62,763 bases of DNA from Zetaproteobacteria bacterium CG1_02_55_237 (GTDB lineage: Bacteria > Pseudomonadota > Zetaproteobacteria > Mariprofundales > Mariprofundaceae). The translations under genes were made by a program, and so were the position numbers. Under the pieces are notes generated by a model. The model was given only the letters and a program-made list of their open reading frames with translations. It ran no database searches and had not been told where the DNA came from. How positions within the stretch are numbered: position 1 is the stretch's first letter; every line of letters starts with the position of its first letter. The DNA lies in assembly GCA_001871195.1 (NCBI GenBank), contig MNXA01000019.1, positions 1 to 62,763 on the forward strand. Direction: 5' to 3'. Positions 367 through 29,387 of this stretch are shown piece after piece.

Positions 367-402
367 GCGCCGCCTCCGGTTTTGGCCGGATGTTGTTTGA
401 CT

Positions 403-492
403 GGAGAGATGTCTGAGTGGTTGAAGGAGCACGCCTGGAAAGCGTGTGTGCGCGAAAGTGTACCGAGGGTTCGAATCCCTCTCTCTCCGCCA
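403..492 (+). tRNA. tRNA-Ser (anticodon GGA)
   Basis: A 7-bp acceptor stem (GGAGAGA with TCTCTCC), an anticodon arm with loop CTGGAAA giving anticodon GGA, a long class II variable arm (TGTGCGCGAAAGTGTACC), the T-arm GGGTTCGAATCCC and an encoded CCA end are all visible. The long variable arm and anticodon define serine tRNA reading UCC/UCU. A partial copy of its 3' end recurs 220 bp downstream at the end of a structured repeat. Confidence 0.95.
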
Positions 493-549
493 GTTTAAAT
501 AAAGTCAGGTAGCACGCCGTTCGGCAGAGCTTCTGATTAAAAAATGTAA

Positions 550-708
550 GAGAGAGGGCATGAGAACCCTCGCGGGTTCGACAATGCGGAAAGCATTGAA
601 CGCCGGAGCGCAGCGAGGGCGGTACAATCTTTCCAAGCGTTGAACGTCTGAGCAAAGCGAGGACGGCCCGAAGGGCGAGGGGCGCAAGCCCCGAGTAATC
701 CCTCTCTC
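550..708 (+). repeat. tRNA-tail repeat element 1 (after tRNA-Ser)
   Basis: The 159-bp element begins with GAGAGAGGG and ends with its reverse complement CCCTCTCTC. The end (AATCCCTCTCTC) copies the 3' side of the adjacent tRNA-Ser. Inside are ATGAGAACCC-tcgc-GGGTTCGA, AATGC-ggaaa-GCATT, CCCGAAGGG and GGGGC-gcaa-GCCCC hairpins. Element 2 after tRNA-Gln (29224-29344) shares the ATGAGAACC..GGTTCGA hairpin, the CCCGAAGGG motif and the GAnTAATCC lead into the copied tRNA end, while its ends match tRNA-Gln instead. It resembles in position the rtT repeats of E. coli tyrT, but I see no sequence identity that I can vouch for. The stretch from 493 to 549 holds nothing else recognisable. Confidence 0.7.
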
Positions 709-27624: not shown

Positions 27625-28202
27625 TGCCGGCCAGTCGCTGCATTCTCCCCTGCATCGCTGCCTTACTGTTCCTCACCGCCTGTGCAACACTTCCTCAATC
27701 AACTGACACACCGGGAATCGGACCTTACCACACCATCAGTGCGCACCTGCTCGTTATGGAACCAAACCGGCGCTGGCAGGTGATGCTGGACTGGCAGGCC
27801 GACACGCCATCCAGAGGTCAGGCACGCCTTACACATGCCGCCAGCGGCATGGTTGTTGAGCTGCGCTGGCAGCGCAACGATATTCGTCTGCGCGACAGCA
27901 ATTCCCCGGAGTGGCGCAAGGTAAGCACGGAGCAACTGGCCGAACACGGCATTGTCGTCTCCCCCTACACCCTGTCACAGTTTCTTGCCGGCCAGATTCC
28001 TCCCGGCTTCCGGAAAACAGGCCCGGACACCTGGGAGAGTAAACGCAGCGGCGGTCTGGTTCGCGTTGCCTGGCAAGCAGAGACACAGCGCCTGGAGCTC
28101 AGCGATATCCGGCATGGCAGGCGCGCCACCCTGATTATCATCAAGGGAGAAAAGACCCTCCCTGTTTCGAATACATCACAGGACAACTCTTCCCATGCAT
28201 AA
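27624..28202 (+). CDS. lolB: Outer-membrane lipoprotein receptor LolB
   Basis: Accepts lipoproteins from LolA and inserts them into the outer membrane. A short lipoprotein signal ends at lipobox LTAC, and the body has HLLVMEPNRRWQVMLDWQ, GQARLTHAASGMVVELRW and LSQFLAGQIPPGF, matching the LolB fold and the LolB-IspE gene order. The ATG overlaps the previous stop (TGATG). 192 residues. LolA is encoded at 41046-41717. Confidence 0.85.
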   Translation: MPASRCILPCIAALLFLTACATLPQSTDTPGIGPYHTISAHLLVMEPNRRWQVMLDWQADTPSRGQARLTHAASGMVVELRWQRNDIRLRDSNSPEWRKVSTEQLAEHGIVVSPYTLSQFLAGQIPPGFRKTGPDTWESKRSGGLVRVAWQAETQRLELSDIRHGRRATLIIIKGEKTLPVSNTSQDNSSHA

Positions 28203-29130
28203 ACTGCAAGCCCCGGCCAAAATCAATCTGCATCTGCACATCACCGGCCTGACGAAGCAGGGTTATCACCTGCTTGATACCAGTTTCGCCTATGTCGATG
28301 TGTGCGACATCCTGCATATCGATACCGCGCCTGATCTGCAGGTCAGCTGTTCGGACCCAGCACTCAATGGTGAGCACAATCTTGTATTCCGTGTGCTACA
28401 AGCCTTGCGTGCTGAATACAGTGTCGCCCAAGGCTTGCACGTGCATGTCGAAAAAAACCTGCCGGCGCAGGCAGGACTGGGTGGTGGTTCCTCTGATGCT
28501 GCAACGGCACTGATGGCGGCCAACAGGTTGTGGGGTCTGCATCTGACCAGCTCTGAACTTACCAGATTCGCCACCCCCTTCGGGGCTGATATCCCCTGTT
28601 TTCTGTTCGGCGGCGCCAGCATCGCCCACGGCATCGGCGAAAGGCTCGCACCCCTTGAGCTAGCGCCGGAGGATCAATACGTCGTACTGGCCCATCCGGG
28701 CGTCGGACTTTCCACCGCCGCTGTGTTCACATACTTCGACGAAGGGCATGGCATGGCCCCCGGTCAATTGCCCCCTGCTGAATTGACCCCACTGGGGGTG
28801 AAAGCTACCATGCGCGCCGGTTTGAAAGGTGGTGCAGAAGAGTCGCTCCCGCTTGGTGAAAACGTGTTGGAAACTGTATCTCTGCAAATGTGCCCCGAGC
28901 TTGCCCGCATGCTCGCAGCGATGAAGCAGGAACAGCCGTCCAGCTGGATGAGCGGCAGCGGAACTGCCTGCGTTTCCCTTTGCGACAGCGCGGCGCAAGC
29001 CGAAGAAATGGCAGAGCGTCTTGCAGCGGGTGGACTCGCCGCATGGACCCATGCCGGCAAACTGCTGGCCCAGCATCCGCTGCATAACAGCGGCATGCAG
29101 CCAGCCGACTGGGGCGTAGCCAAGCGGTAA
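28195..29130 (+). CDS. ispE: 4-diphosphocytidyl-2-C-methyl-D-erythritol kinase
   Basis: GHMP kinase of the MEP isoprenoid pathway. It shows LQAPAKINLHLHITG, the ATP loop LPAQAGLGGGSSDAATAL and the C-terminal MSGSGTACVSL. At 311 residues it carries an extra tail after HPLH: the last codons, for ADWGVAKR, run into tRNA-Gln, and the TAA stop is formed by bases of the tRNA D-loop. It overlaps lolB by 8 bp. No earlier stop exists in frame, so the overlap with the tRNA is real unless the annotation of the tail is wrong through a sequencing error. Confidence 0.93.
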   Translation: MHKLQAPAKINLHLHITGLTKQGYHLLDTSFAYVDVCDILHIDTAPDLQVSCSDPALNGEHNLVFRVLQALRAEYSVAQGLHVHVEKNLPAQAGLGGGSSDAATALMAANRLWGLHLTSSELTRFATPFGADIPCFLFGGASIAHGIGERLAPLELAPEDQYVVLAHPGVGLSTAAVFTYFDEGHGMAPGQLPPAELTPLGVKATMRAGLKGGAEESLPLGENVLETVSLQMCPELARMLAAMKQEQPSSWMSGSGTACVSLCDSAAQAEEMAERLAAGGLAAWTHAGKLLAQHPLHNSGMQPADWGVAKR

Positions 29131-29184
29131 GGCAACGGGTTTTGATCCCGTCAGGCGCAGGTTCGAATCCTGCCGCCCCAACCA
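29110..29184 (+). tRNA. tRNA-Gln (anticodon TTG)
   Basis: Acceptor stem TGGGGCG with CGCCCCA, D-arm GCCAAGCGGTAAGGC, anticodon arm ACGGG-TTTTGAT-CCCGT with anticodon TTG, T-arm GCAGG-TTCGAAT-CCTGC and an encoded CCA. Its first 21 bases are also the end of ispE. The position between ispE and prs is common in proteobacteria; the overlap with ispE is the unusual part. A near copy of its last 19 bases lies at 29326-29344. Confidence 0.96.
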
Positions 29185-29223
29185 GAACAAAACCGAAGCG
29201 AAAGCTTTGGCGAAACATGGGAA

Positions 29224-29344
29224 GGCAGGATGAGAACCTATAGGTTCGACCCGAGCACAGCGTGCGAGGGAACGGCGAAGCAATGCGACGCCGGCCCCGA
29301 AGGGGTGAGGCACGAAGTGCCGAATAATCCTGCTGCCCCAACCA
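29224..29344 (+). repeat. tRNA-tail repeat element 2 (after tRNA-Gln)
   Basis: A 121-bp structured element that starts with GGCAGGAT, the complement of the tRNA T-arm 3' side, and ends with AATCCTGCTGCCCCAACCA, matching 18 of the last 19 bases of tRNA-Gln including CCA. Inside are GAACC-tata-GGTTC, CGAGCACAGCGTGCG, GGCCCCGAAGGGGT and GGCAC-gaa-GTGCC hairpins. The plan equals that of element 1 after tRNA-Ser, but the ends follow the local tRNA. It may be processed like a tRNA 3' end, may be mobile, or may act as a terminator-like structure; none is shown. Confidence 0.75.
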
Positions 29345-29387
29345 TATTGATCGCGTTGCGTTCCATACGCAAACAGGAGAGCGAGCT

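Follow-up and report, generated by a model that had tools for sequence, protein, structure and literature searches.

A tRNA-linked repeat behind tRNA-Gln in a member of the Zetaproteobacteria, with a tail copied from the local tRNA

The element that follows tRNA-Gln in Zetaproteobacteria bacterium CG1_02_55_237 is almost certainly a tRNA-linked repeat (TLR), the RtT family of Rfam (RF00391). TLRs have been known since 1978 without an accepted function. The element lies in a contig (C20) of 62,763 nt, referred to here as the window, from a genome of 2.33 Mb. Sequence comparisons indicate a modular unit that is delimited by direct repeats of the tRNA 3' end; its own ends follow the tRNA, and its folding core is conserved. 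We favor, with a probability of roughly 60%, the explanation that the tail of the TLR mimics a tRNA end and that the repeat is co-transcribed with the tRNA and processed by tRNA enzymes.

We count the element as a TLR because of its Rfam match, the plan that it shares with E. coli tyrT/tyrV and the definition of the class, in which the 18-19 bp at the 3' end are the same as in the tRNA or 5S gene upstream (PMC8144298). The RtT covariance model scores 63.6 bits (E 4e-10 for the window) at positions 29209-29344 of the + strand, above the gathering score of 45 bits; the element lies downstream of, and on the same strand as, a stable-RNA gene, and its terminal tail copy matches its tRNA in 18 of 19 nt. 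The tyrT/tyrV locus of E. coli K-12 has an arm, a core and a tail copy, all as in the tRNA-Gln element. The element, therefore, belongs to a family already described from E. coli and is not new in kind, and the original prediction went astray in likening it to E. coli rtT by position only. The E. coli TLRs number 22 copies at ten loci, and the conservation of RrB was examined within Enterobacteriales only (PMC8144298). For TLRs outside Enterobacteria, we found nothing in the literature beyond RtT annotation in Thioalkalivibrio, where an RtT sRNA is listed among the ncRNAs upregulated in the cold response (PMC8092127). The Zetaproteobacteria appear to be a class for which we found no earlier report.

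Parts and predicted fold of the tRNA-Gln element

The tRNA-Gln gene (29110-29184, + strand, like the other features of this locus; anticodon TTG, CCA encoded) was identified by ARAGORN and scores 70.9 bits with the Rfam tRNA model. The order at the locus is ispE, tRNA-Gln(TTG), element and prs, with names for the protein genes that we presume from their reading frames; the ispE reading frame (28195-29130) overlaps the tRNA-Gln gene by 21 nt. The final 19 nt of the tRNA gene, AATCCTGCCGCCCCAACCA (29166-29184), are the source of the copied tail. They recur as originally predicted, CCA included, at 29326-29344 as AATCCTGCTGCCCCAACCA, with one mismatch (C to T at 29334); by our own estimate, the chance of finding a 19-mer at no more than one mismatch within about 200 nt is near 1e-8.

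The tRNA gene is followed by a spacer, S1 (29185-29223), which is part of the inserted unit and is predicted from the fold to contain a small hairpin and the motif UGGG (29218-29221). The 5' arm, GGCAGGAT (29224-29231), is by alignment and fold a partial copy, in inverted orientation, of the tail of the local tRNA. The RtT core (29232-29325), as delimited by the Rfam RtT alignment and its consensus structure, comprises in order the GAGAACC/GGTTCGA hairpin, middle hairpins, the GCCCC-GAA-GGGG(T) hairpin, the last hairpin and GAAT before the copy. Comparison with the trailers of congeners identifies the sequence behind the copy (29345-29387) as the native tRNA-Gln-to-prs trailer with its Shine-Dalgarno sequence, displaced 3' of the copy.

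The element had been described as hairpin-rich and 121 bp long; the strong fold agrees with the description, but the unit between the direct repeats is 160 bp (29185-29344). The predicted folding energy of this unit is -73.8 kcal/mol, compared with -46.0 +/- 4.1 kcal/mol in shuffles (z = -6.8). The start of the element does complement the 3' strand of the T-arm, as had been proposed: the arm pairs with ATCCTGCT (29327-29334) within the tail copy, with one G-U, and the pairing survives the mismatch because a G-C pair becomes G-U. Outside this stem, the UGGG of S1 pairs with CCCA (29337-29340), and the predicted RNA end is a tRNA-like stem with ACCA single-stranded. It could be argued that the arm is instead antisense to the T-arm and acceptor strand of the tRNA itself, toggling between tRNA and copy and thereby regulating tRNA folding, since GGCAGGAU complements the real tail and pairs slightly better there than with the copy. 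A co-fold of tRNA and element, however, retained the cloverleaf and kept the arm paired with the copy, and we think that such regulation is extremely unlikely.

When 75 non-redundant elements were aligned, the consensus helices were the arm/tail stem, GAACC/GGUUC, GCCC-GAA-GGG(C/U) and the last hairpin. In this alignment, with kinship ignored, several consensus pairs vary on both sides, and G-U (128 helix cells) exceeds A-C (68). Because of this excess within helices, selection on a transcript running in the direction of the tRNA is favored, and the core appears to vary by compensatory and G-U changes.

Other copies and the tails and arms that they carry

Four copies were found in the genome, after tRNA-Gln, tRNA-Ser(GGA), tRNA-Ser(TGA) and tmRNA. 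The second host in the window is tRNA-Ser(GGA) (403-492, + strand), and the RtT-like element behind it (538-715, + strand), which has one extra internal hairpin module, scores 40.5 bits, below the cut-off of 45. The original prediction that the same plan occurs after tRNA-Ser holds for the plan (about 538-715) but not for the full tail, as the copy comprises the first 12 nt only, AATCCCTCTCTC (697-708), without CCA. Because seven tail bases in all are lost, CCA included, the full tail is not essential at this element. The tail copies are exact in the Ser(TGA) and tmRNA elements; the latter, at 1382-1570 of locus L004 (contig C21 of the same genome, G000), reproduces the 3' end of tmRNA, ACTCCCGCCGCCTCCACCA, without a mismatch, and its arm/tail pairing is weak. 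The extra internal module, GGCGGTACAAT...TTGAACG, is common to the Ser(GGA) and tmRNA copies, which suggests exchange between the loci. Rfam sX4 gave a weak match at window positions 392-562 (22.5 bits; cut-off 70); the sX4 consensus resembles a tRNA-Ser plus the start of a TLR, and sX4 may in part be a TLR locus.

RtT matches were present in 21 of 61 genomes of the host family, Mariprofundaceae, and in 33 of 397 genomes of a phylum-wide sample; the GTDB class of the host comprises two families only in the sample searched. A DNA pattern for the core identified at least 119 stretches in named genomes, and the matches listed come from Enterobacterales, Alteromonadales, Chromatiales, Thiotrichales, Lysobacterales, Nitrococcus and Mariprofundus. 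Elements of the same plan stand behind at least 13 tRNA types in the sample, nearly all in Gamma- or Zetaproteobacteria. The predicted tie of the repeat to tRNA 3' ends is thus borne out by its recurrence after other tRNAs, both in the same genome and in relatives. One record labelled Candidatus Auribacterota (L153, 1816-1857) has a match behind tRNA-Met with only a partial tail match and may reflect contamination or transfer; another match (L005, 17.4 bits) was taken as chance, there being no tRNA nearby. In E. coli rrnB (L286), a TLR lies at 246-430 between terminators T1 and T2. The rrnB T1T2 terminator cassette is common in cloning vectors, and vectors with this cassette are therefore expected to carry the TLR.

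The core pattern fixes AATCC only, so that the next 14 nt are free to vary. Among the matches listed, 111 pattern-found elements had a tRNA within 400 nt, and in 88 of them the 14-nt tail was identical to that of their own upstream tRNA, whereas shuffled pairing gave an expectation of 9.7 (maximum 21 in 1000). Counted as distinct copy-and-tRNA pairs, again among the matches listed, 28 of 49 were exact (1.1 shuffled). These results uphold the claim that the ends follow each local tRNA. The left edge of the copied block is sharp in nearly every element, and because the base preceding ATCC is A, sometimes C, the constant block is 18-19 nt. The block copied from E. coli 5S, AACTGCCAGGCATCAAAT, is 18 nt long and extends 5 nt beyond the mature 5S end; the copied block is, therefore, not simply a mature RNA end. 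The arm, too, varies with the tail: of 8 possible arm/tail pairs, the aligned elements form 6.13 when each arm is set against its own tail and 4.79 when the tails are shuffled (maximum 5.21 over 1000 shuffles), a result that supersedes an earlier test with a crude definition of the start (6.7 versus 5.0).

Empty sites, arrays and the origin of the unit

The tRNA-Gln element is absent in three congeners, G004, G017 and G025, in which the distance from CCA to ATG is 61, 44 and 45 nt, respectively, compared with 203 nt in the window; 4 of the 28 tRNA-Gln loci read in the family are occupied. The sequence behind the copy is similar to the trailers of all three congeners, which there stand immediately 3' of CCA. 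When the Shine-Dalgarno sequence was left out, the likeness was clear for G017 (shuffle fraction 0.0005), weak for G025 (0.02) and absent for G004 (0.44), and S1 showed no similarity to the trailers of the empty congener loci. The sequence behind the copy at E. coli rrnA is nearly identical to the 5S-adjacent sequence of the element-free rrnG, which appears to be the empty form of rrnA/B/D. Because of these comparisons of empty and occupied sites, we take the gained or lost unit to be S1, arm, core and the 18-19 nt copy, with the native trailer apparently displaced behind the unit at occupied sites.

One hypothesis that would account for such sites regards the TLR as non-autonomous: an insertion element that enters at or behind the 3' ends of stable-RNA genes, duplicates about 18 bp of its target and is moved by some enzyme. 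The 18-19 bp block with its sharp left edge, its overrun of the mature RNA end after 5S, the exactness of the empty sites (rrnG versus rrnA, and the congener tRNA-Gln loci) and the similarity of cores behind different tRNAs, such as the 81% identity between Ser(GGA) and Arg(CCG) cores in different records, all argue for it. However, recombination loss between the repeats would yield an identical empty site, no transposase or integrase is common to the loci, and simple target duplication leaves unexplained why the arm matches the local tRNA as well. Moreover, S1 is also duplicated in several Lys loci, so that the length duplicated can differ from 18 bp, and a fixed 18-bp target duplication is weakened as a full account. 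We consider the insertion element possible but unlikely. The original proposal, of a repeat that targets the 3' ends of tRNAs or is copied there, fits the pattern of empty and occupied sites, although we found no enzyme that could mobilise it.

Alternatively, tandem duplication or template switching might create the units locally, at the 3' end of the tRNA, with slippage maintaining them and no movement between tRNAs. TLR units can be tandemly repeated. At some Lys loci, a second S1, including its terminator, stands 3' of the copy, and at other loci a truncated next unit follows the copy, so array growth and decay also shape TLR loci. Tandem arrays, truncated last units and the S1 repeated behind the copy in many arrays are consistent with a local origin, and the tail-complementary arm resembles a quasi-palindrome. 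The conserved core, however, recurs behind unrelated tRNAs and in different classes and thus is not made locally each time; we regard an exclusively local origin as quite improbable. Transfer between tRNAs is favored because the nearest core belongs to a tRNA of another amino-acid type in 19 of 75 elements, although this argument is limited by the poor tree resolution that elements of about 100 nt offer. Similarity statistics for S1/S2 were excluded as evidence, being confounded by tandem arrays.

A third possibility is that phages or islands that integrate at tRNA 3' ends left the element behind as the remnant of an attachment site, or that it serves as a decoy site for them. In an IMG/VR contig (L096, 9971-12453), an integrase gene lies directly behind the last copy of a TLR array. 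A search with the two L096 integrases, which diverged ones could escape, turned up no further relative of them at the loci examined, and the decoy was rejected as a matter of one contig. Furthermore, the 160 bp between the repeats contain no gene, prs and SRP RNA directly follow in the window, and neither the core nor the inverted arm is expected in an att site. We think that an attachment-site origin is very unlikely. The L096 array follows a tRNA-Ser-like end, and an island may have used a copied tail as its site.

Proposed processing and relation to known systems

According to the explanation that we prefer, that of a tail mimicking a tRNA end, the transcript would run from tRNA-Gln through the element into prs; a terminator was looked for between tRNA-Gln and prs, and none was found. 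Pairing of the arm with the copied tail would give the RNA a terminal stem like that of a tRNA, with ACCA unpaired, and the tRNA 3' processing enzymes may read the copied CCA as a second tRNA end. Cleavage would free a short RNA of the RtT type, and the prs message would be left with a clean 5' end. The original suggestion of processing by tRNA enzymes is plausible. That processing takes place at the copied tail itself we judge to have an even chance. Structural selection, gene conversion with the tRNA, or both might keep the pairing and the identity of the tail. The E. coli RrA/B/F are transcribed and processed, and RNase E has been suggested to act at the copied tail (PMC8144298). We count against the preferred explanation that the 5S copy runs beyond the mature end and that the Ser(GGA) tail lacks CCA. 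Also counted against it are the later retraction of a function claim for the tyrT repeat and the finding that the phenotypes of RrA/B/F deletion were no more than modest (PMC8144298).

A broader and more speculative suggestion, which we hold to be rather unlikely, is that TLRs are one old insertion-module family of Gamma- and Zetaproteobacteria that enters behind stable-RNA genes and takes their 18-nt end, while an undescribed DNA mechanism adapts arm and tail to the gene that is joined. The presence of TLRs in Zetaproteobacteria, and behind tmRNA and no fewer than 13 types of tRNA, makes origin and function testable by comparison and with mutants, and tails and arms that follow the tRNA, together with clean empty sites, make an old unexplained repeat family testable.

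Among known systems, 3'ETS-leuZ and other RNAs from tRNA transcripts are likewise released by processing, as proposed here, but they act by pairing with sRNAs and, to our knowledge, have neither a copied tail nor a conserved core. BIME/REP repeats are also intergenic and hairpin-forming; as far as we know, they are not tied to tRNA ends and hold no copy of a local tRNA. Some of them have been reported to be similar to rtT (PMC2965389). The E. coli TLRs, including RrA, RrB and RrF behind 5S, share the 18-19 bp copy of the upstream gene and the hairpin core, but RrA/B/F are flanked by a terminator on each side and are bound by CsrA in vitro, the three 5S-linked repeats being the only predicted CsrA binders among E. 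coli TLRs (PMC8144298), whereas the window copy is without a terminator. A close likeness is to the rtT/RttR repeats of E. coli tyrT-tyrV (RF00391), which lie on the same strand behind a tRNA and have the same arm, the GAGAACC...GGTTCGA, GCCCGAAGGGC and GAGTA motifs and a 19-nt copy taken from the end of their own tRNA; tandem arrays are also among the likenesses. They differ in that the copies of this zetaproteobacterial genome follow tRNA-Gln, tRNA-Ser and tmRNA and occur singly, that the GCCCC/GGGG hairpin is longer here and that the Ser(GGA) and tmRNA copies carry the extra module.
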